Below, piece after piece: positions 46,847-64,000 of a stretch of DNA of 64,000 nt (position 1 is its first letter; each line of letters opens with the position of its first letter). The position numbers and the translations under genes are program-made. Source of the stretch: Ruminococcus sp. (GTDB lineage Bacteria > Bacillota > Clostridia > Oscillospirales > Ruminococcaceae); contig JAGAJO010000012.1 of the NCBI GenBank assembly GCA_017626015.1, forward strand, positions 109,752 to 173,751, written 5' to 3'. Under the pieces are notes generated by a model that made no database searches, had not been told where the DNA came from, and saw only the letters and a list, made by a program, of their open reading frames with translations.

Positions 46847-47461
46847 TCACTTCAAAATCCTGCATCTCAGCACATACCTGTAATAGCCGCTGTAATTGCA
46901 GGTGAATAAAGACAGATCCCAGTCCGAACCGCCCTCAAGGAGCTTACGGTGTTCGTAACCGCCGATAAGCTGTATCTCATTGACGGCAAACTCATAGCTT
47001 ACTCCCCTGTGATCTGTGAAGAAAATACTGTCACCCTCGTTTACCTGGTCAAGATCCTGAAGAAAGGATCTGTAATTGTGTCCGCAGATTATCATATCAT
47101 CAGTCTCTAGGCTGCCGCTGTATCGGCATAGGCTTTCAGACATCTGATCGTAGGAATACCCATATGATACTGGCAGCTCAACTCCGATCTCAGGTATTGT
47201 AAGTATACCGCAGTATCTCTCATCATCAACAATGATAAAATCTTCACTTGTTTCTTCATCAGCACTGTTATTACCGGATATATCGGGAAATGAGCTATCA
47301 GCAGGGATTTCAGTCATACGATCTCTGAGTTCGCTGACAATATGTTCTGACTTCTCTTTCGCCCTGCGGTCGATACTCATATTTACCGTTTCAAGAACTG
47401 CGCTTGATAAAAGAAATACTATCCCCAGTGCGATCAGAACTCCGCTGCGGCTAATCTTCAT
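46847..47461 (-). CDS. Sortase (non-class-C type)
   Basis: 204 residues from ATG 47461, overlapping the preceding gene by 11 bases. One N-terminal membrane helix (GVLIALGIVFLLSSAVLE) precedes the sortase barrel. Catalytic residues: His in MIICGHNYRSF, Cys in LSLFTCNYSG and Arg in YYRYVLRCRI. It lacks the lid and C-terminal helix of pilus-polymerising sortases. It is the last gene of the operon and could attach finished pili to the wall or process a separate substrate such as the NPNTG-bearing mannanase. Class assignment is uncertain. Confidence 0.9.
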   Translation of the reverse strand: MKISRSGVLIALGIVFLLSSAVLETVNMSIDRRAKEKSEHIVSELRDRMTEIPADSSFPDISGNNSADEETSEDFIIVDDERYCGILTIPEIGVELPVSYGYSYDQMSESLCRYSGSLETDDMIICGHNYRSFLQDLDQVNEGDSIFFTDHRGVSYEFAVNEIQLIGGYEHRKLLEGGSDWDLSLFTCNYSGYYRYVLRCRILK

Positions 47462-48185
47462 TGCGTTTTCTGAAGCAACGGTCAGCATACCCTATGACTA
47501 TCAGTGTAATACCGGCGATCGCAAGTACGGGAACAGGCCATTTGAGCTGACCCGTCTGAGGAATTTTTTCTCCTTGATCGGGCGGATTACTGCTGTCATC
47601 AGGCTTTGACGAATCACTTACAGAGGAATCAGGCGTACTGTCCGGCTCGCTTGAATCGTCGTTCACGGTCAGAAACTTCGGAGACGCCTTTACTTTATTG
47701 TAATACTGTCCGTCCTCATAAAGCGGAGCCTCCACCAGAAAGGGTCTTATCATATATTTTTCGCTGCCTGACGCATCAATAAGGTATATACCCTTTTCAA
47801 CTTCTCCGAAATCCGCAATGCCGTTTTCGTCGGACACCAAAACCGAAGCCGCAGGAATATTGTTCTCCTGTATAAAGCTAAGTACAGCCTCTGCGTTTTC
47901 CATAGTAAAGCCCTTTTCGGAAGTGGAAAAATCAAGCTGTGATATTATAGGCTCAAACTCCTCTGCCGGAGTAAATTCGCGTTTCATATAGTCGGTGAAG
48001 TCTGCTAACTTGTACATTGATACCTCAACGCCGCCTGCCGTTATATCCTTCTGAGGGTCGGTCAGCAGAATTGTTATATAAACGCTGTCGTCCTCCGCCG
48101 ACGCAGGTAACGATGAAAAAAATAAGCATAACGTTACAAACGCCGTTATTATTGCATTTAACTTTAAAGAGGCGTTTTTCTTCAT
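47451..48185 (-). CDS. Minor pilin / SpaA-type surface protein with IPQTG anchor
   Basis: 244 residues from ATG 48185 with AAGGAGGGG. Signal peptide ends near PASAED. A single beta-sandwich domain (about 35-175, GIYLIDASGSEKYMIRPFLVEAPL) resembles minor pilins. A Ser/Pro/Asp-rich linker follows, then the sorting signal IPQTG, a hydrophobic helix and a basic tail. Located between the two sortase genes, it is a candidate base pilin that links the shaft to peptidoglycan. Confidence 0.88.
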   Translation of the reverse strand: MKKNASLKLNAIITAFVTLCLFFSSLPASAEDDSVYITILLTDPQKDITAGGVEVSMYKLADFTDYMKREFTPAEEFEPIISQLDFSTSEKGFTMENAEAVLSFIQENNIPAASVLVSDENGIADFGEVEKGIYLIDASGSEKYMIRPFLVEAPLYEDGQYYNKVKASPKFLTVNDDSSEPDSTPDSSVSDSSKPDDSSNPPDQGEKIPQTGQLKWPVPVLAIAGITLIVIGYADRCFRKRNED

Positions 48186-48198
48186 TGCTATCCCCTCC

Positions 48199-49086
48199 TT
48201 ACTTCTGATATTTATCCAGTATTGCACGGCGTCTTAAATACTCCTCACGGCTCAGCCTGCGGGTCTTGTATTTCGACGATACGTAAAGCAGTACTACCAT
48301 CGACAATGTCCACAGTACGATACCCACAGCTATGGCTACATACGCTTTGTTTATTCTGCGTGCCTCGGAGTAGATCAGCAGATCGACCTCGGTGGTCTCG
48401 ACCCTTTTCCCATTGACAAGCAACCTGTGCGTATTTATTCCGTAGGGTGTACAGGTCACCAGCGTTATGATGTCCTCGCCGCCAATTATTCTCAGCTGGG
48501 CAAGCTCTTTGGGTTCGACTATCTTAATATCATTGACCTCATAGCACAGCATGTCGTTCAGTATATGTATCTCAAAATAATCCCCTTTTTCAAGCTGGTC
48601 AAGATCGTTGAAAAGTCTTGCGGACGGAAGTCCTCTGTGACCCAATATCACTGCGTGGGTATTTACTCCGCCCACAGGCACGGATGAAGCCGGCGAATGC
48701 CCTGAGGCAACACGAAGGATACTCTCCTCCGTACCGTGGTATATCGGAAGCTCAACATCAATAGTAGGGATAACCAGATATCCCATGATACCGTCTTTGT
48801 TGATATTGAGCACGTCCTCATAATCGGCTGTGCCGTCGGGTACAGGCTTTCCGCTCTGCTGACTGCTGTACAGAGCCTGATTGTAAAGCGTTGCCGCTGT
48901 TTTCATTCGTTCAAGCTCTGAATTATCTGTACTGTCCACTGTATTCCTGTAATCGGTGATCGCTCTGGACTGCACCTTGGAGTTCCAGTAATCACTAACG
49001 GTAGGATATGCGACAATGGCGATACCTAAGAGAAATATTATCATCATTATTATGTTAAAACAATGCTTTTTAAGAAATCTTTTCAT
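48199..49086 (-). CDS. srtC: Class C (pilus-polymerising) sortase
   Basis: 295 residues; ATG 49086 with GGCGG upstream. N-terminal membrane anchor (about 8-28) and C-terminal helix (KAYVAIAVGIVLWTLSMVVLLYV) bracket the barrel. A ~60-residue helical stretch precedes the barrel. Catalytic residues: His in VILGHRGLPS, Cys in IITLVTCTPYG and Arg in NTHRLLVNGKRV. Two-membrane-helix sortases of this kind crosslink pilin subunits through a Lys of the next subunit. It directly follows the major pilin gene (24 bases). Confidence 0.94.
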   Translation of the reverse strand: MKRFLKKHCFNIIMMIIFLLGIAIVAYPTVSDYWNSKVQSRAITDYRNTVDSTDNSELERMKTAATLYNQALYSSQQSGKPVPDGTADYEDVLNINKDGIMGYLVIPTIDVELPIYHGTEESILRVASGHSPASSVPVGGVNTHAVILGHRGLPSARLFNDLDQLEKGDYFEIHILNDMLCYEVNDIKIVEPKELAQLRIIGGEDIITLVTCTPYGINTHRLLVNGKRVETTEVDLLIYSEARRINKAYVAIAVGIVLWTLSMVVLLYVSSKYKTRRLSREEYLRRRAILDKYQK

Positions 49087-49110
49087 ACTACCGCCATTGT
49101 CCAATTAAAA

Positions 49111-50840: not shown

Positions 50841-53800
50841 TTATCGGCCCTGCTCAGGCAGGATTGCCTTCCTTTTTATGCGGACTATTACCGCCGCTGT
50901 TGATAACAGCATTACTGCTGCTCCTGCAAGAATAATGTAAAGCATTCCGCTGCCGCCTGTCATTGGCAGCTCCTCTGCGATCGGATCGGATATATCTACA
51001 TACAGCGTTTCCCCGCTGTTTACTTTACCTCTTTGCGCAATATGCAGCTTGTTTGTCAGCGTAAAGCCCTCAGGCGCTGCTGTTTCCACGAATGCGAAGG
51101 TATTTTCTACCTCACTGGGATAGGTTATACGTCCGTTCTCATTCGTCATGCTCAGATCTATAAAGTAGTAGACCGTAGCTGTTCCGTTGCTGTCAACGAT
51201 CCTGTAAAGCTGACTGAAATCCTGTCCTATGCTGTTTACGTCCGTAAGTTCCGTGACCATTCCGGGGATAGCGGTAAAGTCCGCATAGCTGTCCTTTGCA
51301 GCCGTAAGTCTTGACGTATCCACCGTTGTCAGGACGTGCAGCTTTTTATTGCCTGTTTCAAGAGTCCGAACGTTCTGCACTGCGCCTATGTACCCGTCAA
51401 CGTGCTCGCTCCACTTCTGCTGAACAAGAGCCTCAAATTCGGGACTTCCCGAAGTACCTGTTATCACTCCGTATCTTGCAATGCCTGCGCCCTCCAGAGG
51501 AGTGCTGTCCTTTGCGCTGGACTTTCTTACTCTTATTGAATAATCATCGTAAATATTCGCACAGCTTATCTTGTATCTGCCGTTTCTGACGTAGGTTATG
51601 GTGCATGAATTTGTCTTAATTCCCTGCATTGTGGAGAATACGACGTTTTCAGGGAGATTTATTTCCGTAAACGTATATTTCTCACCCTCAGTCCATGAGA
51701 ATTTCTCCGCTGTAACGGCATAAGAGTAATTTCCATCGCCGTCCTGCGAAAGAGAATATTTCATCGGCTTGTCGAGGCTTACATACTCGCCACTGTCTAT
51801 CTGCTCGGGAGTGAGCTTTACGATCGTGAAGTCAATATTTCCGTCTGCAAGGGCTTTGAAAAGCTCCTGCTCGTTTGTGTAGTCTATCGGATCGCCCTTG
51901 TAGACCGCAAATTCAGCGGATGCGTTAAGCTCTGCAGCGGTTATATCCCTGCCGGTGCCGGCTTTAAGTGTCTTTTGTATTTTCGGTGTAGTAGCCGTCA
52001 TTATTCCTACATTGAGGGACGAAGCCGAAAGCTCCTGATAAACATCCGAGCCATCTGCTATGGGGACTGAATACCTGTAACCGAAATTGTTCCAAGCTAT
52101 CTGACCGGGCTTTACGTTGCCGTATATCCTTGCGTTTGCCTCTATGGTAAGGGTATGCTCCTCAGCAATTCCATTGCCGCCTTTGACAACAACTCTGAAC
52201 GAACGTATATCCTCTATATTGAGAGTATTGTCCGCTATCTGCTGAGCCGCATCTTCAAGAGACAGCCATTTTGCGTCCGCCGCACCGTCCCAGTCCTCGG
52301 GAGTAAATTCTGTTGCGGTAGAAAATTCTATGGTGTATCCAAGCTCTGTATCGCTGAATGCACTACTGTCTGCAACACGCCTGATCTCTGTTATCTCGTT
52401 CTCAGCGCCCTCGTCCAGAACCCTGAATTTATTCTCCGCTATCTCTGTGAGCGCCACCAGGAATTCGCTGTGTCTCTGGGCGGTCTCGTCGCCGTAGGAC
52501 ATATGGTCGCCTATCTCGGGGAGATCGTCGATTATGACCATTCTGTTTATGGGCTGAATGCATTGATTGTTAACGCTCAGCGCATAAGTGAACGGAGAGC
52601 ATGGCGGGTATTCCGATGTCTCGTCCCATTCCTGTTCGTCGTCCCATTTGAGAACGATGTAGTTATGGGTCGAGCGTGACGCCGCATTATTGGTGTGGTC
52701 AGAATCGTCAGTTATGGTCTTCCATGAAGTCGTACTGAAAGCGCCCGATATTGTTACCATTGACGATGTCTCGATACCCTCGGGGTTGCCGCTTCCGTCT
52801 CTTACAACTGCACCTTGAATAACATTATCGGCATCGTAGGCTCTGTTGGGTGATAACTCAACTTTGTTTATGTAGCTGCCCAACGCCATTTCGCTATGCG
52901 GCAGTTTGGTCTGAACTGTCATTGTTGCGTAGCCGCCTGCAGGGATAGACACTACCTTTCTGGAATTCTCGTCAAATGTGATCTGAAGAATACAGTTGTA
53001 TTTTTCATCTATGTCAAATTTGATCTTGGCTTTGACGTGTTGGAAATCAAGGTCAGGTCCATATTTCCCTTTTGTGCCTGTATAAAAACTGCATTCCTTT
53101 TCCTCACCTAGCTTTACCGAATAAGAATTATAATAATAGGTTTTATCATAATAATCTGAACATGTTTTAAATTGTACCGTAATATCTTCCTTGGTATATT
53201 TATCAAGAGCTTTAGTTATTTCATTGCCGTCAGCGTCTTTAAATATAATGTCGCTAAGAAAAGTACACTTTGAATTAACCACGGTCAACGGGAAATCAGA
53301 AGATCTTCCGTATTTATCATAAAGCGTATAATACGCATCCCCAGTAAAATAGAACGGATACTGCATAGTGTCTGTGATAGTGTATTTATCTAATGAATTT
53401 GTTCCGTTGTTGGAATAAGTCATAGTCCATTCCGCCGTATCGGTCGATTCCATCAGACCTGTCACACAGTCCACTTTATCGCCCTGCGGAGTTATCTTTG
53501 AGGTTATCTGCTTTGTAACTCCTGGTACGATATTTCCCCTTACAAGGTCAACGTCTGAGGTCAGCCAGTCTGAGGTATACTTGCCCTCCAGCCCCGCAGT
53601 GGAGGCATCAAAATCGCTCCAAATATCACAATCGCCGTCGTTTTTGGATTCAGGATATTTATTATAATTGCCTGTGACAGTAACTCCCTCTGACTTTGTA
53701 AAGCCCGCATCGTTATAGTCGTAATACTGCATTGAAACTCTGTTATTTGCAATATCCTCGGTGTACCGATACTCGGGAACATAACATCTGTAACCGAACG

Positions 53801-56800
53801 AGACAGCCTGTCCTTTTTCAAGGTAACACATTTTCCTTTCGCTGTCGTAACCAATATTACTTTGAGTATATGTTGTGTTGCCTTCAGTACACTTATTGGA
53901 AAAGCTGAACTTCATTTTTTCCTGATAATCGCCGTTTACGTCATTTGTATCAACGGTAGTGTGTTCTACAAAGACAGACATATACTCAACGCTGTCATTA
54001 TTAACGTCTGTTACAGGCGAAAGAATGTTATTGATATTTCTTCCCGAATCGCCTTCTTTGTATCTGTATGTCAACAAATACTGATTGCGATATGTACCTG
54101 AATTATTTGCCTTTATATAATTGCTCTCGCTAATAGCAGAAGCCGAATATACCGAACCGTAATCGCTTACTGCACACATACCACGATAGGTAAAGCCCTT
54201 TGGCAGTGTGTCGATCATATCGTTAAGATACAGCCGTGCATTTCCCGAATTATATATTGTAACATAATATGTCACGATAGGGAAATTCATGGTGGCGTTA
54301 GAATATTCGGTTCTTGTACCCTTATTGGGTGCATTGTTGCCGGAGACATCAGCACTTTTTGCATCATACACCCCATAAACTCCTTTCTGCAAATAAGCCT
54401 GACCGGAGGCTTTGAGGTCGTGGGAGACCGTTGCCTCTTTGTTGCTTACACAGAAATGGTTGACTATGTGGTTGCCTGTGTCGAATGCCGACTGCTCGTA
54501 TTCAGTCCAGACCTTTCCCTCCGGATATTTCAGCGTTACGTAAATATCCAGCGTTTCGTGCGGTCTGAGGGTCAGTCCGCTGCGGACGTAGTTTTCAGCC
54601 GTTGTAACATCCGCAGGGTCAGGCAGTTCGGTCACGTCATTGAAATAAAGGTAGTACCGTTCTCCGTTGCTGCTCTCACCGTTGGGCTGGATATCGCTTA
54701 CCTTCCACTTGTCCGCAGAGGTGTTTGGCGTATCCATACTGCTGACTGTTGTCAAGGTCACGTCGTCATTTTTCCATACAAACTTGCCGTAGTTCTCTGG
54801 GAGCATATCGTATGCGTTTGTAAAATACTGATCGTAGTCACTGTGATTGTTCAGTGTAAGCTTATACGTAACAGAATTTCCCATGCCGATCTCGGTATGC
54901 TTTGAAAGCTTTTCGTTCTCGCCTGCGGGATCCTCAGTCACGATATTCTTGTTAAAGCTTGCGGACACAAACACGATCCTTGTATCGGAAATATATGCAT
55001 AGATCCTGTGTTTCTCACGTTCGCCCACGTATGCCCTGTTGTCCACGAACATATCGCCCGTGTTTACGGTAGAACCTGCCTTGTCATCTACAATGGTCTT
55101 GTAGTTTACATAATTTTCGACTGCACCCTTTACCTCGTCAAAATACCAGTACATTCTGGTAGTGAGGTCCTTGAGGTTCTTCGTGACCTCTATCCTGTCC
55201 GCTTTGAGAAGCTTTCCTTTGCTATCATAGCCGAACCAGATATCCCGGTAAGTTCCGCCCTCGGACAGCAGATAGTAGTCTGCGCCGTCGACCGTAGCTG
55301 TTCTGAGTCCAGCCTCGGACAGCTTGACCGTGGTCTTGTTGCCGTCCTTGTCGGTAGTTATAAGCACTGCGTTCTCGTTGCCCGCAACAGGTGCGAGGGC
55401 TGACTGCGAGCCTGTCATATAGTCGTTGACAGGTACGCCGGTGAGTTCGCCTGTGCCCTTGTGGCTAACCTTTATCTGGAAATCAATAATGTCGCCGTTT
55501 TTAATGGTTTTGGCGTCTTTAACTCCGTTGACGGAGTAGTATTTGTAAATGTAAAATTCAGGATATTTGTCATATGCTCCAACCCAACCAGAGCTAACTG
55601 TTCTAGTGCTTCCATTTAATATATAAGTACACTGAGCAATATTTTTTCCAATATTACCATAATTCGTTCCCGAACGATGCTGATCATGATTTAAATCTTC
55701 AAAAATAGATTTGACAGTTGCAGGAATAACATATTCCCTTTCTTCAATAGAAGCAAATTCAGGAACTTTCATATTCCACACACAGCTATATGTTGTACCC
55801 GAACTATAACTACTAGAATTACCTGTAAGAACATTAATAAATTCGATAGCGTCAAAATATGCCTTTATTGTTTCATACTCCTGACCGCTGCCTATATTTA
55901 CGGTTTTATCACCGCAGGTCAGTACAAGGCAGCTTTTGTCCTCTGCCCACTTCATGGTAATGTTGTCGAGTTTTTCCATCGACTCGCCCTTTTCTATAGC
56001 GGGCACTTTTACTTCATTGCCGTTAATATCAGTAACAGGCTCTCTCTGCTTTTTATCACTTGTATCCTTATAACCATTTTTTATTGTAATAGTAAGTTCG
56101 TCACCGTATTTGTCGTTGAACATATAATCCATGTCCTCGGGACGTATTACATAATGATAAGGCACATCATCAGAGACCTTAGTTACTGTACCGGGCACAA
56201 TGCCAATATTTTTTACTTTTAAAGCAAATTCAATCTTTGAGTTCTCTGTAACGCCAAAATTTCTGTCTTTTGGATATTTTACGCCGTTATACAAAGCCGT
56301 TTTTTCAAATTGTATATCAGGCTTAGCCGTACCCAAAACAACGCTGGTCTTAGCAGCCTGCTCAAATACGCTGTCACGTGGAACTTCGGCATTATCGGTG
56401 TTTATAGTATGCTTTGTGGTGTTGTTTGGCTTCGCAAAGACATACTCGGGGTTCTGTATCACATTGCTGTAAATCTGCTTTTTCTGAGTAAAGTCGTAGT
56501 CGTCGGCAAGCTTGAAAATATCATCAGCATTGTACGTAATGGTGTGGTTTTGCGTACCCATTTCGTAGTTTGCATCGTTGGTAATAGTCGTACTTGAAAG
56601 ATTTTTGTTTTTTCTCGTATATGTCAGTACGGGAGTATTTTTTTCATCGTCCCAGACTACCTTTACGTCCTCGCATGTCGTATTCATGTACGCAAGCAAT
56701 ACATTTCCATTGGGAGTACGCAGATATATGTATGGCGATGAGCCTACGCAATAATAGTCGCCATTCTTGATAGCATTAACTATTTCAGGTTCCCACTCTA

Positions 56801-59800
56801 AGCCCTCGGGCAGAGTGAGCCACTCAGTATAATTTATCGCCTTTGTGGGGTCAATACCGTAGCTGTCCTTAGTTGAATTGCCTATCTTACTGTTTTTTAC
56901 AGTGAACTGTATATCATTCTTTATCTTCGGAATTATTCCGCCGTTTCCGTCGCTTACAGCCTTAAAGCCGTATTCAGTTGTGGGTACAGAATGATCTACG
57001 CTCCACTTGTCGATCGCCGTGTACCACTGAGCCTCCTGATATTCATCCGGAGTGAGATCAAGTGCGTCCTCGGGTTTCTCCACTATCTGGAGCCACTGCT
57101 TCATTGTAGCATTCTGATCAGTCAAATTCGGAACATATACTCTGGAGTCAAAGGACAGAGTATTTCCGTAAGGCATCGCAAATTCCAGATAGTAAATGTT
57201 GGAATTCTCTACCTGCTTGAAAGTAAGCTCATACTCCATGCCCTGATTGTTTGTGAGCGTAGTCGTCCCGCCTACAATGTAGTTTTCAAAAATAACATTG
57301 TCGGATGAGCACTGGAAAAATACCCTGGCATACTTTGCAAACTCGTGTCCCGACTCGGTGTCCGAGCCTGCGGATTCTGCCGAAACGCTTACGTTCATCG
57401 TAGCTACCTCTCCTGTAAAGAAGTAGTACTTCTTCGGATCAACAGGCTCAACGCTGGGTATGCGGTTCTTACTTGCAGTGGGATTTGTGATAGCCGCATG
57501 GTCAAGCTGACCCAATCTGTCGGCAACCTTGTCTACAAGCGTATCGCTTATACGTCTGTCCACAAACTGGAGAGTTACCAGATATTCTCTTGCCTCGCCG
57601 TTTTTGGTTTCCACCTGAACGGGTTTTTCGGTCAGATTGCTTGTGGAATCTACGTCGGTAAGTCCTGTATGATAGAAAGCGTGAAGTCCTACCGTCGCAT
57701 TAGCAAACAGGGATTTTGCGCTGTCTACGGTAGTCACAGTAGTGCCGTCCGCCGTTATGGAGGACAGAGTTTTACACTCCGCAAAAGCGTTGGACTCAAC
57801 TGTGGTGACCTGTGATATGTCCTCAAAGGTCAGGGACGTCAGGCTGTCCGCAAGCATGCAGCAGTCCTTTTTAATAGTAGTCACGCCTGCGGGAACGGTA
57901 TAGCTTGTCAGACCGTGGGGTATATAATACAACGTGGTTTTATCCTTGGAATAGATAGCTCCGAACTCGTCTACATAGTACTCCGTAGTGCCGTCGCTCA
58001 TAGCCGACAGCGGTCTGCCCATTGATTTCAATGCATTTTCGCCCAGAACAAGGCTGTCGTTTTGCGCAAAATTGATCTCGGAGATCTTAACGTTTTCTGC
58101 AAAAATGTTATCGGGGAGCCTGTCAACAGTCGAGCCTATATTCAAAACAAGATGGTTGGTCTTGCCAACACCGCTGAACGCATTTGCGTTAACATTTGTG
58201 GCGTTTACAGCGTTGTAGTCGATTTTTTCGAGAGTATGACAGTTCTGAAATGCTTTATCACCTATTGTTTCTACGTTTTCGGGAATCGTTATCTCTTGCA
58301 GATTAGTGCAGCCAATAAACGCCTGTGTATCAATAGTTTTCAATGCGACTGCATCCTTAAGGTTTATTTCTTTTATGCCGGTGCAGTTGTAGAATGCATT
58401 AGCGCCGATTGATTGCAGAGATGTACAGCCGTCAAGCTTGACCTCTGTTATGTTAGGTGTATTGCTAAACATACTTTTCGGTAAAGAAGTAAGCGACGAA
58501 CAGCCTGAAAAATCTACACTATGAAGCGTATTATTATTAATCTGGTGTACAGTAGTCAGATTTACGCAGTCTTTAAAAGAAATCTTCTGTAATTTTGAAC
58601 CTTGACCTTGGAATTCCGCATCGCCAATACTTCTCAGAGTTTCCAAACCTGTAAAGTCTATTTCCTTGAAATTTCCAAGATAATGATCCCAGTTATTTCC
58701 TCCGCCCCTTATATACGCAAGCTGTGTATTAGTAAAATCAGCCTTAGCATTATGTAAGCTGCTGCAACCTTTAAACATAAGCGAAGCAAATGAATATATT
58801 TCCGTCAGATGTGTTAGTTTTTCAAAGGGAATATATTCAAGAGATGAACAGCCATTAAAAACATTATCTTCAAGTTTGGTTATCTTGCAGTCATCATAGA
58901 AATTTATAGTCTTTAATGAAGAACAACCACTAAAAGTGTTTTTTAATGTCCCGCTCAGTTCTGTACACTTTGACATATCAGCTTCGGTCAGTGACGTACA
59001 ATTAGAAAATGCGGAAGTCCCTATTTTTTCTAGTTTCGTCAATTTTTCAAACGGAAATGTTTCAAGTGATGAACAGTACATAAACGCAGGAGTCGAATAA
59101 TATGAACTGCCTCCAATCATCGTTATAATATTATTATCCGGTACCTTTACTGTCTTAAGTAATTTACAGCTTTGAAAGCCCGTTAAATTAGTAAGTTTAT
59201 TCCAATTTGACAGATCCGCTTCAATTATAGATGTGTTGTAAAATGCATCATCGCCTAATAGCTCAACATTGGACAACTGTTCAAACGGAAATGTTTCAAG
59301 TGGTTTACAGTTATAAAATGCCTTTTTGCCAATAGTACTGATATTATTGTCAGCGGCAAAGTTTACGTCCGCCAATGATGTACAACCATCGAACAGTGAA
59401 TCAGGTATTGTATTCAGACCTGTCATTGCGCTTAGATCCGCTGATTTCAGAGAAGTACATTCTTTAAATGCGCCGCTTTCGATCGTTGTAATATTTGATA
59501 ATTGTTCAAAAGGAAATCTTTCAAGGGCTTTACACTGCCAAAATGCGTTATCTTTAATTGTCGTCAGACTTGATTCGTTGCCAAAATTTATATACTTTAA
59601 ATTAAAACACTGATAAAAACTTTGACTGCCAACAGATTGAATATCCGAACATTCGCTTAAATCAACAGCTAAAATGTTATTACAATACATAAAAGATTTT
59701 ATTTTTATACTACTAAGTCCGGCAGCCGCTTTAACCGCTGTTACCTCGTTTTTATGATTTGTCCACGAGGAACTGATATTATATGATTTACTCGGGTCGA

Positions 59801-60086
59801 TCGGTTCAAAATAAAGGACGCCGTTTTCATATATCGACCATTTTAAGTTTTCACTAGAAACAGACCCTGTATACTTCGGTTCTTCATCAGCAGGCACAAT
59901 AACCGTGACATCGCCGCTTTCGGAAACGCTAAGGCATTCAGGCAGAGTATCGTCGGTCATAGTCACGCCTGGTCTTTCCAGCACAAAGAAAACCGTAAAT
60001 GCCGCCAACAGCGACATTACAGCTATCACAGAAAGTATTACCCTGCGGGTCTTTGCCTCCTTAAGCATACATTTTACAGTACTCAT
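50841..60086 (-). CDS. Giant pilus-tip adhesin with BspA-type leucine-rich repeats
   Basis: 3081 residues; ATG 60086 with AAGGAGGTG. One membrane/secretion helix lies at about 15-36. Residues ~110-820 are BspA/LRR_5 repeats (CTSLxxIxxxAFxxC), including four FPFE(Q/K)L or IPFEKL modules. About 830-2750 are mostly beta-sandwich repeats (DUF11-like, with patterns such as DMLPENYGKFVW and DTLPKGFTYRG). About 2800-3035 are SpaA-like domains with VETAAPEGFTL. The anchor LPMTG is at 3040-3044, followed by a helix and basic tail. It is a plausible pilus tip protein for binding host or fibre. Base composition is uneven along the gene: the LRR part is far richer in A+T. Same operon as the pilin and sortases. 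Confidence 0.93.
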   Translation of the reverse strand: MSTVKCMLKEAKTRRVILSVIAVMSLLAAFTVFFVLERPGVTMTDDTLPECLSVSESGDVTVIVPADEEPKYTGSVSSENLKWSIYENGVLYFEPIDPSKSYNISSSWTNHKNEVTAVKAAAGLSSIKIKSFMYCNNILAVDLSECSDIQSVGSQSFYQCFNLKYINFGNESSLTTIKDNAFWQCKALERFPFEQLSNITTIESGAFKECTSLKSADLSAMTGLNTIPDSLFDGCTSLADVNFAADNNISTIGKKAFYNCKPLETFPFEQLSNVELLGDDAFYNTSIIEADLSNWNKLTNLTGFQSCKLLKTVKVPDNNIITMIGGSSYYSTPAFMYCSSLETFPFEKLTKLEKIGTSAFSNCTSLTEADMSKCTELSGTLKNTFSGCSSLKTINFYDDCKITKLEDNVFNGCSSLEYIPFEKLTHLTEIYSFASLMFKGCSSLHNAKADFTNTQLAYIRGGGNNWDHYLGNFKEIDFTGLETLRSIGDAEFQGQGSKLQKISFKDCVNLTTVHQINNNTLHSVDFSGCSSLTSLPKSMFSNTPNITEVKLDGCTSLQSIGANAFYNCTGIKEINLKDAVALKTIDTQAFIGCTNLQEITIPENVETIGDKAFQNCHTLEKIDYNAVNATNVNANAFSGVGKTNHLVLNIGSTVDRLPDNIFAENVKISEINFAQNDSLVLGENALKSMGRPLSAMSDGTTEYYVDEFGAIYSKDKTTLYYIPHGLTSYTVPAGVTTIKKDCCMLADSLTSLTFEDISQVTTVESNAFAECKTLSSITADGTTVTTVDSAKSLFANATVGLHAFYHTGLTDVDSTSNLTEKPVQVETKNGEAREYLVTLQFVDRRISDTLVDKVADRLGQLDHAAITNPTASKNRIPSVEPVDPKKYYFFTGEVATMNVSVSAESAGSDTESGHEFAKYARVFFQCSSDNVIFENYIVGGTTTLTNNQGMEYELTFKQVENSNIYYLEFAMPYGNTLSFDSRVYVPNLTDQNATMKQWLQIVEKPEDALDLTPDEYQEAQWYTAIDKWSVDHSVPTTEYGFKAVSDGNGGIIPKIKNDIQFTVKNSKIGNSTKDSYGIDPTKAINYTEWLTLPEGLEWEPEIVNAIKNGDYYCVGSSPYIYLRTPNGNVLLAYMNTTCEDVKVVWDDEKNTPVLTYTRKNKNLSSTTITNDANYEMGTQNHTITYNADDIFKLADDYDFTQKKQIYSNVIQNPEYVFAKPNNTTKHTINTDNAEVPRDSVFEQAAKTSVVLGTAKPDIQFEKTALYNGVKYPKDRNFGVTENSKIEFALKVKNIGIVPGTVTKVSDDVPYHYVIRPEDMDYMFNDKYGDELTITIKNGYKDTSDKKQREPVTDINGNEVKVPAIEKGESMEKLDNITMKWAEDKSCLVLTCGDKTVNIGSGQEYETIKAYFDAIEFINVLTGNSSSYSSGTTYSCVWNMKVPEFASIEEREYVIPATVKSIFEDLNHDQHRSGTNYGNIGKNIAQCTYILNGSTRTVSSGWVGAYDKYPEFYIYKYYSVNGVKDAKTIKNGDIIDFQIKVSHKGTGELTGVPVNDYMTGSQSALAPVAGNENAVLITTDKDGNKTTVKLSEAGLRTATVDGADYYLLSEGGTYRDIWFGYDSKGKLLKADRIEVTKNLKDLTTRMYWYFDEVKGAVENYVNYKTIVDDKAGSTVNTGDMFVDNRAYVGEREKHRIYAYISDTRIVFVSASFNKNIVTEDPAGENEKLSKHTEIGMGNSVTYKLTLNNHSDYDQYFTNAYDMLPENYGKFVWKNDDVTLTTVSSMDTPNTSADKWKVSDIQPNGESSNGERYYLYFNDVTELPDPADVTTAENYVRSGLTLRPHETLDIYVTLKYPEGKVWTEYEQSAFDTGNHIVNHFCVSNKEATVSHDLKASGQAYLQKGVYGVYDAKSADVSGNNAPNKGTRTEYSNATMNFPIVTYYVTIYNSGNARLYLNDMIDTLPKGFTYRGMCAVSDYGSVYSASAISESNYIKANNSGTYRNQYLLTYRYKEGDSGRNINNILSPVTDVNNDSVEYMSVFVEHTTVDTNDVNGDYQEKMKFSFSNKCTEGNTTYTQSNIGYDSERKMCYLEKGQAVSFGYRCYVPEYRYTEDIANNRVSMQYYDYNDAGFTKSEGVTVTGNYNKYPESKNDGDCDIWSDFDASTAGLEGKYTSDWLTSDVDLVRGNIVPGVTKQITSKITPQGDKVDCVTGLMESTDTAEWTMTYSNNGTNSLDKYTITDTMQYPFYFTGDAYYTLYDKYGRSSDFPLTVVNSKCTFLSDIIFKDADGNEITKALDKYTKEDITVQFKTCSDYYDKTYYYNSYSVKLGEEKECSFYTGTKGKYGPDLDFQHVKAKIKFDIDEKYNCILQITFDENSRKVVSIPAGGYATMTVQTKLPHSEMALGSYINKVELSPNRAYDADNVIQGAVVRDGSGNPEGIETSSMVTISGAFSTTSWKTITDDSDHTNNAASRSTHNYIVLKWDDEQEWDETSEYPPCSPFTYALSVNNQCIQPINRMVIIDDLPEIGDHMSYGDETAQRHSEFLVALTEIAENKFRVLDEGAENEITEIRRVADSSAFSDTELGYTIEFSTATEFTPEDWDGAADAKWLSLEDAAQQIADNTLNIEDIRSFRVVVKGGNGIAEEHTLTIEANARIYGNVKPGQIAWNNFGYRYSVPIADGSDVYQELSASSLNVGIMTATTPKIQKTLKAGTGRDITAAELNASAEFAVYKGDPIDYTNEQELFKALADGNIDFTIVKLTPEQIDSGEYVSLDKPMKYSLSQDGDGNYSYAVTAEKFSWTEGEKYTFTEINLPENVVFSTMQGIKTNSCTITYVRNGRYKISCANIYDDYSIRVRKSSAKDSTPLEGAGIARYGVITGTSGSPEFEALVQQKWSEHVDGYIGAVQNVRTLETGNKKLHVLTTVDTSRLTAAKDSYADFTAIPGMVTELTDVNSIGQDFSQLYRIVDSNGTATVYYFIDLSMTNENGRITYPSEVENTFAFVETAAPEGFTLTNKLHIAQRGKVNSGETLYVDISDPIAEELPMTGGSGMLYIILAGAAVMLLSTAAVIVRIKRKAILPEQGR

Positions 60087-60098
60087 CTCTGCACCTCC

Positions 60099-60683
60099 TT
60101 AACTGTTCCGCTTAAAGAACGATATTTTCTTAAATGGATAAATCCTGCAAAAAATTCTTCCCAGCATATCCTCATCTTTCACACACCCTACTTCCGACGA
60201 ACGGCTGTCTATAGACGTACTGCGGTGATCCCCGAGTACAAACCAGCATCCGTCCGGCACCTGATACGGGAACTCTATATCGCAGTTTCCCTCGCCCTTG
60301 TCCACCGCATAAGGCTCGTCCACCATTACATTGTTCACGTAAACGTTTCCATCGTCATCAAAATCTATCCAATCCCCTGCCCCTGCGATAACTCGCTTGA
60401 GCAGGATCTTATTATTATAGTAGAACGCAACTATCTCGCCACATTCAAAGTCCGAAGCTTTGAGCACTACGATTATTTCGTCCTCACTCAGCGAAGGAGT
60501 CATGCTCGTGCCCGATATTTTCAGTACGGGCAGCCACAGCGTTGCTACCAGCACTGCAACTGCAACAACCACGATAAGCGTGACTATCGTGATCCTGAAC
60601 GCCTTTGCATATCGGCTGACGTTCTCGCGTCTTGCAAGCTCACGTTCGATCTGCTCCAGCGTCGGACGCTCCGCTCTCGTCAT
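60099..60683 (-). CDS. lepB: Type I signal peptidase
   Basis: 194 residues from ATG 60683, which has GGAGG nine bases upstream inside the preceding gene; a start at 60704 lacks one. A single N-terminal helix (ITIVTLIVVVAVAVLVATLWL) is followed by the catalytic Ser in SGTSMTPSL and Lys in LLKRVIAGAGD. Box E is VLGDHRSTSIDSR. It removes signal peptides from the pilins and adhesin, and such dedicated copies are common in pilus operons. Only 12 bases separate it from the adhesin gene, and it overlaps the upstream gene by 44 bases. Confidence 0.95.
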   Translation of the reverse strand: MTRAERPTLEQIERELARRENVSRYAKAFRITIVTLIVVVAVAVLVATLWLPVLKISGTSMTPSLSEDEIIVVLKASDFECGEIVAFYYNNKILLKRVIAGAGDWIDFDDDGNVYVNNVMVDEPYAVDKGEGNCDIEFPYQVPDGCWFVLGDHRSTSIDSRSSEVGCVKDEDMLGRIFCRIYPFKKISFFKRNS

Positions 60684-60837
60684 CGACTTCAACCTCCGCC
60701 TCATTTTCGCCGTCGGACTGTTCCCAACCGTATTCCCTTAGCTTATCCTTCAGCTCCAGTATTTCTGCCTCCTGATCACGAATGATCCACAAAAGCTCGG
60801 TCTTACGCAGTCTGCGCAATTTTTTGTCATTCATCAT
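60640..60837 (-). CDS. Small coiled-coil protein, first gene of the pilus operon
   Basis: 65 residues; ATG 60837 with AAGGAAT. An N-terminal basic helix (KKLRRLRKTELLWIIRDQEAEILELKDKLREYG) has heptad-like spacing, followed by a very acidic tail. No membrane segment. Overlap with lepB in another frame and the good ribosome site argue that it is real and cotranslated. Similar short KLRRLRKxELLEI proteins accompany sortase clusters in related Firmicutes, according to my recollection; the function is unknown, perhaps membrane- or complex-linked scaffolding. Confidence 0.75.
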   Translation of the reverse strand: MMNDKKLRRLRKTELLWIIRDQEAEILELKDKLREYGWEQSDGENEAEVEVDDESGASDAGADRT

Positions 60838-60933
60838 ACATTATTCCTTAATTATTTTCCTGTTTCAGACTCAAAATCCGCTTATATTTGCAGTTTGAAT
60901 TAATCAAATATGAAATTTCAATTACCTTCTTTC

Positions 60934-60962
60934 ATTATACCACTATAAGAAAAAAGCCCCGC
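60934..60962 (-). promoter_or_regulatory. Pilus operon -10 region in the left inverted repeat, without -35
   Basis: Minus strand: TATAAT (60939-60934) preceded by GTGG. The hexamer 17 bases upstream reads GCGGGG, unlike TTGACA; TTGCGG exists only at 19 bases. A run of T's just upstream looks like the terminator tail of the recombinase gene. Another weak candidate, TTGATT-N15-TATAAG, lies nearer the first gene. Confidence 0.6.
60936..60950 (+). repeat. Inverted repeat, left copy (recombination core candidate)
   Basis: TATACCACTATAAGA, exact inverse of 62353-62367. With single mismatches the match extends over the adjoining A-run. The pair encloses the recombinase gene. Confidence 0.8.
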
Positions 60963-61000
60963 AATCCCCGATAAATCAAGGCTTTGCAGAGCTTCCCGAC
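60957..61000 (-). terminator. Weak terminator of the recombinase gene
   Basis: On the minus strand AAGCC ... GGCTT forms a short stem followed by six T's, ending at the left inverted repeat. It would stop read-through into the pilus operon. Confidence 0.45.
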
Positions 61001-61007
61001 CACAATT

Positions 61008-61020
61008 CTGACCAGAAATA
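61008..61020 (+). repeat. CTGACCAGAAATA direct repeat, possible arm-type recombinase site
   Basis: Related copies are at 62185-62197 (CTGACAAGAAATT) and 62198-62210 (TGACCAGAAATAG), all in the same orientation and flanking the recombinase gene. Lambda-type integrases bind such arm repeats with their N-terminal domain; that use here is inferred. Confidence 0.55.
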
Positions 61021-61031
61021 AAACAGAAAAG

Positions 61032-62141
61032 CTAAACGCAGGCATACAATTTTTCAAGCTGCTTACGCTTCATGTCCATGTTGGAATGTACATATCTTTC
61101 AAGAGTAATTTTCACACTTGCATGACCTAGCAATTCGCTGACTGTTTTGACATCAATTCCAAGCCGAATGCATTCTGTAGCAAATGTATGCCGAAGGACA
61201 TGAAAATTCTTATATGGTACGCCAATATGTTTCAGAAAAGTTCTGTATCTGTACTGATAAGTCCTTGGCTCGGTATGCTGAACTGATTGTGTCAGAAAAT
61301 AGCAGTCAGGATTGACATTTCGTTTGATTTTAGCAATCTGCGACAGCATAAAAGTCGGAATGGGAATATCACGGATAGACTTTGCACTTTTAGGTTCATC
61401 GATTATCACCACTGTTTTCGGACTTACGGCATTCGGATTTTTTATGCGTTGGAGAGTTTTTCTCACATGTATAACCTGATTTACAAGGTCAATATCTTGC
61501 CACGTCAGGGCGCATATCTCTCCTATTCTAAGACCCGTATAAAGACACAGCAGAACGCCAAGTATCTGACAGTCATCACATAAAGCATTCTTACGGATTT
61601 TCTCCATTTCAATGCTTGTAAAAACCTCAATTTCCTTATGCTCCGATTTTGGCAGCGATACATTTTTAGCAGGGTCATCAAGCTTGTATTCGGTTTCTCC
61701 GTAAGCGAATACAGATTTCATCATGATTAGAATTGCCTGCACGCTCCTTGATGACAGACCTCTATCATCATTTCTGCCGCATTCCAACAGTTCGGACACA
61801 TAGCGATTGATCATAAATGAAGTCACTCTGTCAACACGCATATCTCCGAACGGTGCAGCGATGTAATTCTGATACATAGTGCGATAATTGACATAGGTTG
61901 ATGATTTAACACTATTTTTACGGCTTGCAAGCCATACCGAGAAAAGTTCGGATACCGTTATCGGATTGTTTTTCGGCAATAGATCAACTTTAGCAAGCTG
62001 TAATTTCTGAGAACATTCTACATAACTGTAAGCATAAACGGACGAATATTTTGCTCTGCCGTTATTCAGATAGCTTGAAATGTACCTGCCTTCCCAGCGA
62101 CCATCTTTGCGCTTGAATATGTTTTCTCCTCGTCTTGACAT
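61032..62141 (-). CDS. Tyrosine recombinase / integrase
   Basis: 369 residues; ATG 62141 with AAGGAGG. N-terminal AP2-like arm-binding domain (KRKDGRWEGRYIS), then a core-binding SAM-like domain (TVSELFSVWLASRK...). The catalytic domain has Arg in TGLRIGEICAL, HxxR in FHVLRHTFATECIRLG, and His plus Tyr in LGHASVKITLERYVH, the complete R-H-R-H-Y set. Its 3' end points to the pilus operon and the gene lies inside a pair of exact inverted repeats. It may invert that segment, integrate an element extending to the right, or both. Composition is more A+T-rich than the chromosomal genes to its left. Confidence 0.95.
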   Translation of the reverse strand: MSRRGENIFKRKDGRWEGRYISSYLNNGRAKYSSVYAYSYVECSQKLQLAKVDLLPKNNPITVSELFSVWLASRKNSVKSSTYVNYRTMYQNYIAAPFGDMRVDRVTSFMINRYVSELLECGRNDDRGLSSRSVQAILIMMKSVFAYGETEYKLDDPAKNVSLPKSEHKEIEVFTSIEMEKIRKNALCDDCQILGVLLCLYTGLRIGEICALTWQDIDLVNQVIHVRKTLQRIKNPNAVSPKTVVIIDEPKSAKSIRDIPIPTFMLSQIAKIKRNVNPDCYFLTQSVQHTEPRTYQYRYRTFLKHIGVPYKNFHVLRHTFATECIRLGIDVKTVSELLGHASVKITLERYVHSNMDMKRKQLEKLYACV

Positions 62142-62184
62142 GGCGATACCTCCTTAAAATATGTACTTTAAGTATACACCCGTT

Positions 62185-62210
62185 CTGACAAGAAATTTGA
62201 CCAGAAATAG
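62185..62210 (+). repeat. Tandem GAC(A/C)AGAAAT repeats upstream of the recombinase gene
   Basis: Two adjacent copies, CTGACAAGAAATT and TGACCAGAAATAG, overlap the likely recombinase promoter (TATACT near 62172). The recombinase could repress its own gene by binding here. Confidence 0.5.
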
Positions 62211-62340
62211 AAGAAAAAAGAGTTAAAATCATCTCAAGATCTTTGATATTTTGCAAGCAAATATACAGATTGTGAAATTTTTGTCGTTTAATTTGTACAA
62301 AATATATAATTGGATTTGTAAATTTTAGTCAATCCGTGGA

Positions 62341-62369
62341 TTGATTTTTTTATCTTATAGTGGTATATT
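62341..62369 (+). promoter_or_regulatory. Outward promoter at the right inverted repeat
   Basis: TTGATT (62341-62346), a 17-base spacer, TATATT (62364-62369), reading rightward. The -35 and most of the spacer lie inside the bracketed segment, and the -10 overlaps the repeat, so inversion would move this -35 to the pilus side. Confidence 0.72.
62353..62367 (+). repeat. Inverted repeat, right copy (recombination core candidate)
   Basis: TCTTATAGTGGTATA, reverse complement of 60936-60950. It sits in a larger dyad, ATCTTATA-N9-TATAAGAT (62352-62376), the arm-spacer-arm form of a tyrosine recombinase crossover site. Confidence 0.8.
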
Positions 62370-62524
62370 ATAAGATAATTTCGGCGTATACTTCACATTT
62401 TGTCGTATGTTAACTCTGTTTTAAGGAGAAGTCAAGTCGCTTTGGAAAGTTTGTTGCTTATGCTTTAAGTTGGTTACTGAATTTTGTAGCATGTGTGATA
62501 TACTTATAGTTAAATACAAAGCGT

Positions 62525-62556
62525 GCTCCGAGAGTAAAAATCTTGGAGCGCCAAAA
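62525..62556 (+). terminator. Terminator-like hairpin right of the inverted repeat
   Basis: GCTCCGAGA/TCTTGGAGC (one G-U pair) is followed by CGCCAAAAAGTTTTTTA. It could end a transcript coming from the outward promoter at 62341. The ~150 bases before it contain no gene. Confidence 0.6.
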
Positions 62557-62572
62557 AGTTTTTTATTATCTC

Positions 62573-62601
62573 TTGACAAACGAGCGTTCTAATGCTATAA
62601 T
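62573..62601 (+). promoter_or_regulatory. Consensus promoter of the structured leader / AAA ATPase gene
   Basis: TTGACA (62573-62578), a 17-base spacer, TATAAT (62596-62601): both hexamers perfect. Confidence 0.92.
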
Positions 62602-62607
62602 ATTAAA

Positions 62608-62796
62608 TAGAAACAACAGCATTCAACATAAAATGACAATTAAATAATAAGTGCCTTTTACTTACATAAACATAATGGCAAATACATTTAGAGCTTTAAG
62701 CTCGTACATATTTCAGGCACGATTTTGGTAACAACGGGATAACTGTATCCTCTTGTAAAAATCGTGGAACTGAAATGTGTGCGGGCTTTTTTGTTT
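62608..62796 (+). ncRNA. Structured leader RNA or small RNA ending in a long hairpin
   Basis: From the perfect promoter a ~190-base transcript would run to a hairpin with long arms (about 62697-62726 and 62757-62786) and six T's at 62787-62792. The arms contain CATATTTCAG/CTGAAATGTG and CACGATTTT/AAAATCGTG, with a small inner stem GGATA/TATCC. No reading frame with a ribosome site is evident. It may be an attenuator controlling the downstream ATPase gene, or a separate small RNA of the mobile element. Boundaries are estimates. Confidence 0.6.
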
Positions 62797-62900
62797 TGGT
62801 TACATATTGAGATCGGAAATTAATGTACGTCAAAATTTTGAATGCGATTTTAAAACGAAAAGCAACAGAAACTTGAAAATTGAATAGGAGGCTTGATAAA

Positions 62901-63947
62901 TTGAAAAAGTTCAACTCAAAGTCCTGCGAGGAAATCATGACCACCGTGTACAAACCGATTAAATTTGTAGTTGACAATTTGCTTGCACAAGGTCTGTATA
63001 TCTTAGCGGGTGCGCCGAAGGTCGGGAAATCATGGCTTGCGCTTGATATGTGCTTGTCCATAGCGAAAGGAGCAAAGGTCTTAGATCAGACAACATCACA
63101 GGGAACTACACTCTATCTGTGTCTGGAAGATAGCTTCGCACGAATCCAAAATCGTCTTTATGAAATCACGGACAAGCCTGCGGAGAGATTGCATTTCGTA
63201 ATTATGTCCGAGTCAATTGGAAATGGCTTGGAAGAACAGATTACAGTATTTAAAAATGAGCATTCCGATTTAAAAGTTGTGTTCATTGATACTCTGCAAA
63301 TGGTGCGTAACGAATCAGATTCGAGTTATAGTTCAGATTACAAAGAGTTGTCTGTTTTGAAAAATCTTGCGGATAAACTTGAAATCACAATAGTAGTTGT
63401 ACATCACACACGAAAGTGTTCTGACAGCGATCCATTTAATATGATTTCAGGTTCAACTGGACTGAGTGGTTGTGTAGACGGTAGTATGGTTCTAATTGAA
63501 AGTAAGCGTGGAAGTCGGAAAGCTAAACTGCATTGCTTAGGTCGAGATATTGAAAATGCAGAAATTAATTTGCAGTTCGACAGTAATTTGAAAAAGTGGA
63601 TCGTTACTGATAAACCGCTCGACTGTAAAAACAAGGATAACATTTTTCTGGCTGCACTGTATGTGTATCTTAAAGAGCATATTGATTTCAGCGGTACAGC
63701 TTCGGAATTAGTGAATGCTCTGAAAAGTGTTTCCGATGAAACGTTTTATTCCAACAGATTAACAAGAGATTGGGTGCAGAACGGTTACACTCTCAAAAAG
63801 TTTGGAATTGATTTTCAGTACAAACGTACTCGCACAGGTAGGCTGATAATTCTTCATTACGACCATGAGCGTGACAGTAGTGACAGTAAAAATTCTACTG
63901 TCGTTGCTGTCAACGGAGAGCACAAGCAATACCTTGCAAACCCTTGA
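62901..63947 (+). CDS. RepA-like AAA ATPase / replicative helicase of a mobile element
   Basis: 348 residues from TTG 62901, nine bases after AGGAGG; a TTG at 62880 lies before that site. Walker A is AGAPKVGKSWLALD, Walker B KVVFIDTLQMV, and VVVHHTRK matches the RepA/RecA-like family AAA_25. These are hexameric helicases or loaders used by plasmids, phages and integrative elements. The C-terminal part (about 245-330) resembles a winged-helix DNA-binding region. Composition is A+T-rich and, with the recombinase, suggests the left part of an integrated element that continues beyond the window. Confidence 0.88.
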   Translation: MKKFNSKSCEEIMTTVYKPIKFVVDNLLAQGLYILAGAPKVGKSWLALDMCLSIAKGAKVLDQTTSQGTTLYLCLEDSFARIQNRLYEITDKPAERLHFVIMSESIGNGLEEQITVFKNEHSDLKVVFIDTLQMVRNESDSSYSSDYKELSVLKNLADKLEITIVVVHHTRKCSDSDPFNMISGSTGLSGCVDGSMVLIESKRGSRKAKLHCLGRDIENAEINLQFDSNLKKWIVTDKPLDCKNKDNIFLAALYVYLKEHIDFSGTASELVNALKSVSDETFYSNRLTRDWVQNGYTLKKFGIDFQYKRTRTGRLIILHYDHERDSSDSKNSTVVAVNGEHKQYLANP

Positions 63948-64000
63948 AAATGCTTGATTTGCGGTGATGACAGTAGGTGTGACAGTAACTAATATCGGAT
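63948..64000. other. Window end, no feature resolved
   Basis: Fifty-three bases after the ATPase stop. The next gene of the presumed element starts outside the window. Confidence 0.3.

Follow-up and report, generated by a model that had tools for sequence, protein, structure and literature searches.

Hin works by promoter inversion, fimB and fimE are located outside fimS, psrA is situated within the stretch that inverts, and integrases of the Tn916/Tn1549 type move elements by excision and integration. Here we describe a segment of about 1.4 kb near the end of a 64,000-nucleotide stretch of DNA from Ruminococcus sp. (contig JAGAJO010000012.1; the whole stretch is called the window below). The segment carries a tyrosine integrase gene between inverted copies of a recombination site and lies next to a sortase-pilus operon. 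We consider it very likely to be a self-contained invertible promoter switch, with the integrase inside, that controls the pilus operon. Invertible promoters as a kind of system are already known.

Several described systems resemble the window cassette in part. The Hin/H-segment system of Salmonella has its recombinase gene inside the invertible segment, as the cassette does (PMC5903667, PMC11868660). Hin is a serine recombinase that acts at hix sites, whereas the window enzyme is assigned to the tyrosine type (PF00589), outside the serine family of Hin-type switches, and is accompanied by two-armed cores and TGGTCA repeats. Window-type cassettes, unlike Hin, precede many unrelated operons. 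According to a 2018 survey, recombinases are mostly encoded beside the switch and occasionally within it, Hin being an example (PMC5903667). The FimB/FimE-fimS system of Escherichia coli type 1 fimbriae shares with the window a tyrosine recombinase, an invertible promoter and a pilus target; fimS, however, is 314 bp long and belongs to chaperone-usher pili, whereas the pili of the window are of the sortase type (PMC9993118). Unlike fimB and fimE, the window integrase lies inside its segment. RecV of C. difficile is likewise a tyrosine recombinase, and the invertible segments of this clostridium stand before surface and signalling operons; RecV serves several of them (Cdi1 and Cdi4 among others), whereas the window segment has its own enzyme and spacer (PMC5903667). 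PsrA of the pneumococcal cod locus, a tyrosine invertase whose catalytic residue is Y247, is encoded like the window integrase in the locus that undergoes inversion, but it shuffles hsdS coding sequence, in contrast to a promoter switch (PMC7105139). Inverton group 139, of which 32 of 33 members come from Clostridia, is statistically tied to tyrosine recombinase group 35 (PMC11892184). Two group-139 examples are ~255 bp long with the enzyme nearby, whereas the window segment is 1.4 kb with the enzyme inside (PMC11892184).

Integrases of the Tn916/Tn1549 type have catalytic-domain homology and PF14659 in common with the window integrase, which may also resemble them in having arm-type direct repeats, but the window sites, unlike theirs, are arranged for inversion. 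Among the listed titles and abstract openings of the openly licensed PMC literature, we found none on a Clostridia promoter switch that has a tyrosine integrase inside its segment. Surveys limited to short intergenic inverted repeats may miss such a cassette, given its length of 1.4 kb and the gene that it contains.

An integrase gene between two inverted sites

The anatomy of the segment comes directly from computation on the window and comprises the following features.

60927..60951, + strand: left recombination site (integrase-3' side), with a partly degraded outer arm, the core TATACCAC and a perfect inner arm TATAAGA
60956..61000, - strand: hairpin resembling a terminator, downstream of the integrase gene and at the left segment edge
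60998..61015, - strand: pair of TGGTC(A) direct repeats, arm-type-like, integrase-3' side
61032..62141, - strand: tyrosine recombinase/integrase of 369 aa, with PF00589 and PF14659, intact and inside the segment
62187..62204, - strand: arm-type-like site, integrase-5' side, TGGTCA (62198-62203) and a diverged upstream partner
62281..62310, + strand: second outward promoter within the segment, TTGTCG-N18-TATAAT
62341..62369, + strand: outward promoter across the right site, TTGATT-N17-TATATT, its -35 (62341-62346) inside the segment and its -10 (62364-62369) crossing the edge
62350..62378, + strand: right recombination site (integrase-5' side), a complete two-armed palindrome TTATCTTATA-core-TATAAGATAA

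A sequence-only reading of the window had proposed an exact 15-base inverted repeat around a complete tyrosine recombinase gene, and both parts are confirmed. The sequence TATACCACTATAAGA occurs at 60936-60950 (+) and in an exact inverted copy at 62353-62367, a pairing that extends to 28 nt at 86%. With copies more than 300 bp apart considered, this is the longest exact inverted repeat in 60000-64000 (15 nt, against a maximum of 14 in 100 dinucleotide shuffles). No other match with two or fewer mismatches occurs in the 64-kb window (0.02 expected by chance), and no third copy with at most one mismatch occurs anywhere in the assembly. Each 15-mer is the core of a two-armed recombination site, and the 8-nt crossover core is the same in the left and right sites.

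Residues R205, H314, R317, H340 and Y350 of the integrase, which we take to be its catalytic residues, are invariant in a seven-row alignment. Compared by profile with solved structures, the protein is most similar to XerA/XerC-like entries, with the Int protein entries 6en0, 6emy and 6emz (presumably the Tn1549 integrase) close behind. It does not pass the cut-offs of the tyrosine-type DNA invertase models NF007370 and NF007371 (32.9 against 221 bits and 28.1 against 222 bits), and it is homologous to Tn916/Tn1549-type integrases in both the catalytic and the core-binding domain. A Pfam scan gave no match on its N-terminus. We infer that this is probably a heterobivalent integrase repurposed for inversion, a reading that makes testable how an excision-type integrase turns into an inversion enzyme. 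The sequence-only reading had found it noteworthy that the recombinase travels within the segment; the gene is indeed inside, but this is not peculiar to the locus, as relatives described below have the same arrangement.

At the left site a minus-strand TATAAT (60934-60939) is directed at the pilus operon, and GCGGGG occupies the place of its -35, 17 bases away (by eye); at the right site TTGATT stands 17 bases before the -10 TATATT at 62364-62369, all as the earlier reading described; on the second promoter at 62281..62310 it was silent. The sequenced orientation of the window is pilus-OFF. A simulated inversion, scored with approximate weight matrices, bears out the further claim that flipping places TTGATT-N17-TATAAT before the pilus operon: the best pilus-side scores change from 8.5 to 11.5 and 10.3. 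The pre-flip 8.5 belongs to a TTGAAA/TAGCTT match inside the segment, and the best score using the site's own -10 is 7.2. For the right-site promoter taken alone, the score is 8.5 where shuffles average 7.3, and its support therefore lies in conservation among relatives. The window thus has inverted repeats around a segment with an outward promoter, the latter identified by consensus and conservation. The stem that had been described as terminator-like at the left edge is present, in that an 85-nt stretch folds at -27.9 kcal/mol, but a strict terminator scan listed nothing at that edge.

The model that we infer for catalysis, promoter activity, arm binding and insulation is as follows. The integrase would invert the segment between the two inverted copies of its own two-armed site, so that the segment promoter would read towards the pilus operon in one orientation (ON) and away from it in the other (OFF). 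The -35 in the segment would complete a -10 lying across the site, with a second full promoter further in, and the integrase's terminator-like hairpin would insulate the pilus operon in the OFF state. The paired TGGTCA repeats are probably bound by the integrase N-terminus, as with integrases of the Tn916 and lambda type, and could also regulate the integrase promoter. If this is true, a sortase pilus with a giant adhesin would be phase-variable by means of a compact self-carried switch in a Ruminococcus-like gut anaerobe.

Conservation and orientation in relatives

The conservation of this design and its occurrence in both orientations are seen directly in related loci. Within the genus, integrase homologues occur in G014 (98% identity), G001 (93%), G010 (64%), G004 (63%), G021 (58%) and G006 (57% and 55%). 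Five of the eight genus loci (the window, G014, G001, G010 and G004) have the two-armed site inverted on both sides of the integrase, each at a different locus; a search with exact seeds found no such pair at the two G006 loci or in G021. The neighbouring operons differ: the window has the pilus operon, G010 a BspA leucine-rich-repeat (LRR) protein, and both G001 and G014 have zinc-ribbon genes, identified by Pfam in the former and by eye in the latter. The window is 97.6% identical to G014 over 1894 bp and 89% identical to G001 over 1877 bp, and this homology stops at the left site and runs ~420-445 bp beyond the right site. No close homologue of the first gene of the pilus operon was found in 29 genus genomes, where other signal peptidases are at most 54% identical.

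For a wider sample we used the best 80 of 219 related loci (36-98% integrase identity) together with the window, 81 loci in all, and required a repeat score of at least 15 pairing the regions before and after the integrase. Such an inverted pair surrounds the integrase in 56 loci, the window among them, typically 200-280 bp upstream and 65-135 bp downstream of the gene. True flank pairs pass in 55 of 80 cases, compared with 3 of 300 mismatched flank pairs. As a further control we took 25 loci from viral contigs, 3 of them too short and some near copies of one another: with integrases of at most 34% identity, none of 14 evaluable loci has an inverted pair (2 more were too short), and at 38-41% identity the pair is present in 4 of 8 (1 more too short). 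No second copy of the window locus was found among viral contigs (best 41%), phage records (best among the matches listed 43%, all below 60%) or plasmid records (best among the matches listed 41%, all below 60%). On the integrase tree we labelled 63 rows, the 56 loci plus 7 own-clade loci, as having an inverted pair that encloses the integrase. This label needs 14 changes, against a shuffled mean of 16.5, with 32 of 500 shuffles as low; being little below the shuffles, the label is scattered and not confined to one clade. In two loci, L113 (gap 408) and L095 (gap 267), the inverted pair lies outside the integrase. These regularities give a search rule that uses sequence only: an integrase gene of this family with inverted two-armed sites at typical distances of 200-280 bp upstream and 65-135 bp downstream, and a promoter at its 5' end.

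The promoter end is conserved as well. Of the 56 loci, 45 have an outward sigma-70-like promoter scoring at least 10 at the integrase-5' end and 2 have one at the 3' end, while 3 have one facing inward (3.9% in shuffles). In the window's own clade, 14 of 15 loci show TTGANN-N17-TATA(A/T)T at the 5' site and none of the 15 shows it downstream of the integrase (shuffles 1/300), while all 15 have a TATA(A/T)T no more than 330 bp downstream of the gene. These own-clade counts indicate a split promoter, whose -35 moves with the segment and whose -10 spans the crossover edge.

Crossover spacers are also matched within loci. For 54 loci processed, 50 of which have recognisable palindromic arms, the spacer is the same in both sites at 47 of the 50, part of this agreement arising by construction since the locus filter favours matching spacers, and 47 different spacers occur overall. 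The window is among the three rows with differing spacers only because a 9-nt spacer was called; its 8-nt core is identical. The pattern fits a recombinase that needs matching overlaps, with the two sites of each locus kept matched by recombination.

The TGGTCA motif recurs on the integrase-coding strand within the segments, in 33 of 60 5' intervals (reversed in 2, ~2 expected by chance) and in 30 of 60 3' intervals (reversed in 2, 1.5 by chance). GGTC-N8-12-GGTC pairs occur in 18 of 60 5' and 21 of 60 3' intervals, and reversed in none. These counts suggest that the repeats are arm-type binding sites for the integrase N-terminus.

Homologous loci occur in both orientations among relatives. 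Between L096 and L097 the integrase segment has the same orientation (92%) and both flanks are opposite (91%; pieces 67-79%), with breakpoints at the recombination sites, so that an operon starting with an FHA-domain gene stands at the promoter end in L096 and at the other end in L097. Both flanks are also swapped between L114 and L125, one match being only 191 bp. Six other pairs have one flank swapped, and in one of them, L087/L124, the integrases are unalignable at the DNA level; all eight pairs were preselected for swapped flanks, and other pairs share same-side flanks. In the window's own clade, G091 has a Tad operon on the integrase-3' side with no good -35 (OFF); its homologue in G419, 83% identical over 5498 bp, follows TTGATT-N17-TATAAT (ON, by eye). 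The operon-side segment end in G419 matches the opposite end in G091 through a 53-nt inverted match spanning the site. This G419 segment (L171 10217-10548; G419:C1:14216-14547) is 317 bp between inverted sites, lacks the integrase and retains two TGACCA repeats. A 93% identical integrase is encoded elsewhere in G419, at an L061-like locus whose core differs by one base, and it may serve the integrase-less segment in trans. First-gene directions at 63 loci are OFF-like in 25 (outward on the 3' flank, inward on the 5' flank) and reversed, or ON-like, in 9 (p 0.009, uncorrected for kinship).

The conserved site pairs, the promoter at the 5' end and the two orientations in relatives together argue for a self-carried invertible promoter and support the switch that the sequence-only reading had predicted. 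In this strain too, the segment would then be expected to flip.

Several observations weigh against this conclusion, in addition to the built-in part of the spacer agreement and the preselection of the pairs. The outer arm of the left site in the window is degraded, unlike the arm of relatives. Twenty-five of the 81 loci fall below the inverted-repeat threshold, most of them with no pair at all, and 7 of these 25 are in the own clade, where sites have diverged. Eleven of the 56 loci have no promoter scoring 10 at the integrase-5' end, arms are visibly mis-centred in some loci (e.g. L070, L079 and L115), and exact TGGTCA is absent from about half of the 5' or 3' intervals. The promoters here are consensus matches, not transcripts, and there is no overall excess of promoter-like matches in 60500-62900 (10 found, 6.8 +/- 2.7 in shuffles). 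The own-clade ON example, G419, has no integrase in its segment. A single genome represents this species, so that inversion is known from relatives.

The pilus operon and competing explanations

The operon that we propose to be controlled consists of six genes in a row on the minus strand, leftwards of the switch and pointing away from it.

60099..60704, - strand: signal peptidase I, with which the operon begins
50841..60086, - strand: BspA-type leucine-rich-repeat surface protein, 3081 aa
49111..50784, - strand: major pilin, SpaH/EbpB family
48199..49104, - strand: class C (pilus) sortase
47451..48227, - strand: small putative surface protein or minor pilin, with an IPQTG-like C-terminus (by eye)
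46847..47488, - strand: second sortase, above cut-off in Pfam and below the cut-offs in NCBIfam

The earlier reading had counted seven pilus/adhesin genes; the pilus and adhesin genes are there, but six are contiguous, and the next gene encodes a GH28 enzyme. An LPXTG-type major pilin and a class C sortase are both present (NF033902 and NF033745 above cut-off), as in sortase-assembled pili, and the small surface protein at 47451..48227 matched no family above cut-off in the family scans. On the other side of the switch, one gene precedes the contig end at 64000.

62880..63947, + strand: AAA_25/DnaB_C-like ATPase gene, right flank, more than 500 bp from the right site

The switch might be real and yet serve mainly this other side (AAA_25 or mobile-element functions), or both sides alternately, with the pilus operon an accidental neighbour. 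In the assembled state the promoter does point to the AAA_25 side, in FC2018 C3 an AAA gene lies at the opposite cassette end, and the first genes of both flanks point outward in 18 of the 63 loci, among them the window. We nevertheless regard this explanation as unlikely. Besides its distance from the site, the AAA_25 gene is preceded by a perfect promoter (TTGACA-N17-TATAAT at 62573-62601); 34 of 63 loci combine an outward first gene on one flank with an inward one on the other; and 13 of 28 scanned outward first genes belong, in our reading, to adhesin, Tad, prepilin-like, S-layer-homology or FHA secretion-like operons.

It is also rather improbable that the cassette is frozen in the window, a relic that no longer inverts. 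The degraded arm at the left site would agree with such a state, and both integrases of Ruminococcus sp. FC2018 lack the C-terminus just after the conserved Tyr, so that frozen copies do exist; the window integrase, however, is full length and keeps its conserved residues, and the crossover core is identical in both sites.

Very improbable is a third explanation, in which an integrative element comprising the AAA_25 gene and beyond has the repeats as its attL-like ends and is excised via a direct repeat past the contig end: the gene adjoins the right site, other recombinase genes lie near AAA_25 homologues in G001 (Pfam), G014 and FC2018 (both by eye), and the contig stop limits the view of an excision partner, but the crossover cores of the window and its relatives are inverted and not in the direct orientation of Tn916/Tn1549-type overlaps, the only extra core match in G001 (two contigs; 1 mismatch, C2:725208) belongs to promoter-like sequence, the first neighbours of most homologous cassettes are unlike AAA_25 (by eye), and excision leaves the swapped flanks in relatives unexplained. 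Excision through a distant direct repeat was accordingly rejected, on the inverted cores together with the lack of a further copy at one mismatch or less in the window's assembly. We retain the invertible promoter switch as the best explanation of the locus.

About 430 bp beside the right site (62369-62800) are conserved with G014 and G001 and hold the promoter at 62573-62601. With a terminator-like end near 62795 (by eye), this stretch could possibly be a small RNA or a leader. A known RNA family was considered for the locus and rejected, the single Rfam match (E 0.79) being below the gathering score.

Proposed targets and possible portability of the cassette

The cassette family is apparently broad and portable. 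The cassettes of L060 and L062 are 88.6% identical over 1443 bp that reach from one site to the other (-248 to +104, counted from the integrase match), and their flanks have no other match of at least 60 nt at E 1e-8. One of the two faces a BspA LRR protein and the other a TadZ-like gene, and movement of the cassette as a unit is therefore plausible. Family scans were made for 28 of 78 outward first genes. Thirteen of these fall into LRR (2), TadZ-like (2), prepilin-like (2), S-layer homology (2) and FHA (5) types; the others include helicase-associated, VWA, TIR, zinc-ribbon, F5/8-type and DUF4910 proteins and two integrases (L102, L131), with 4 genes without a family and 2 with only below-cut-off matches.

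We put forward tentatively, as a possible reading that we do not yet favour, that the site-to-site cassette (~1.4 kb), comprising recombination sites, arm sites, integrase, outward promoter and terminator, is a mobile plug-in phase switch. It would insert as one piece before operons of unrelated kinds (surface, pilus, secretion or signalling) in many gut Clostridia and give each of them private on/off control, insulated by its own crossover spacer. It would have arisen from a Tn916-like integrase repurposed from excision to inversion, and could decay to small integrase-less switches perhaps served in trans by a related copy. If the switch proposed for the window is true, the same design stands before Tad-pilus, BspA-adhesin, S-layer-homology, FHA/FtsK secretion-like, prepilin-like and other operons in other gut Clostridia.

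Some individual loci deserve mention. The window's own genome has a second cassette (L167, G000:C5:146840-148280) with a 41% identical integrase and a different spacer; a perfect 25-bp inverted repeat surrounds this integrase, and the cassette adjoins an operon with an HSP70-like gene (by eye). A cassette with a 58% identical integrase (L065) is found in a metagenome-assembled genome (MAG) labelled Alistipes (Bacteroidota), which could reflect cross-phylum transfer or mis-binning. In L117, from a Selenomonadaceae MAG, the inverted repeat around the integrase is ~177 nt, far longer than in others. The truncated FC2018 integrases (L067 and L068) have a common new tail. The genes at the promoter end include one for an LRR-like protein (by eye) in one case and start with one for a TIR protein in the other; these copies are possibly locked ON.

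Two further core matches were seen in G001. The one at G001:C2:725208-725222, with one mismatch, lies inside a perfect TTGACA-N17-TATAAT promoter (by eye), and judging from this copy the recombination site looks like an extended -10 promoter. The other (L046 12291-12305, ~G001:C2:468291) is a two-mismatch, one-armed core copy ~18 kb from the G001 cassette. It exceeds the ~0.06 matches predicted for the 204 kb scanned, as estimated from the window mismatch rate; we set it aside because the second arm is missing, the core differs and the sequence is apparently coding (by eye).

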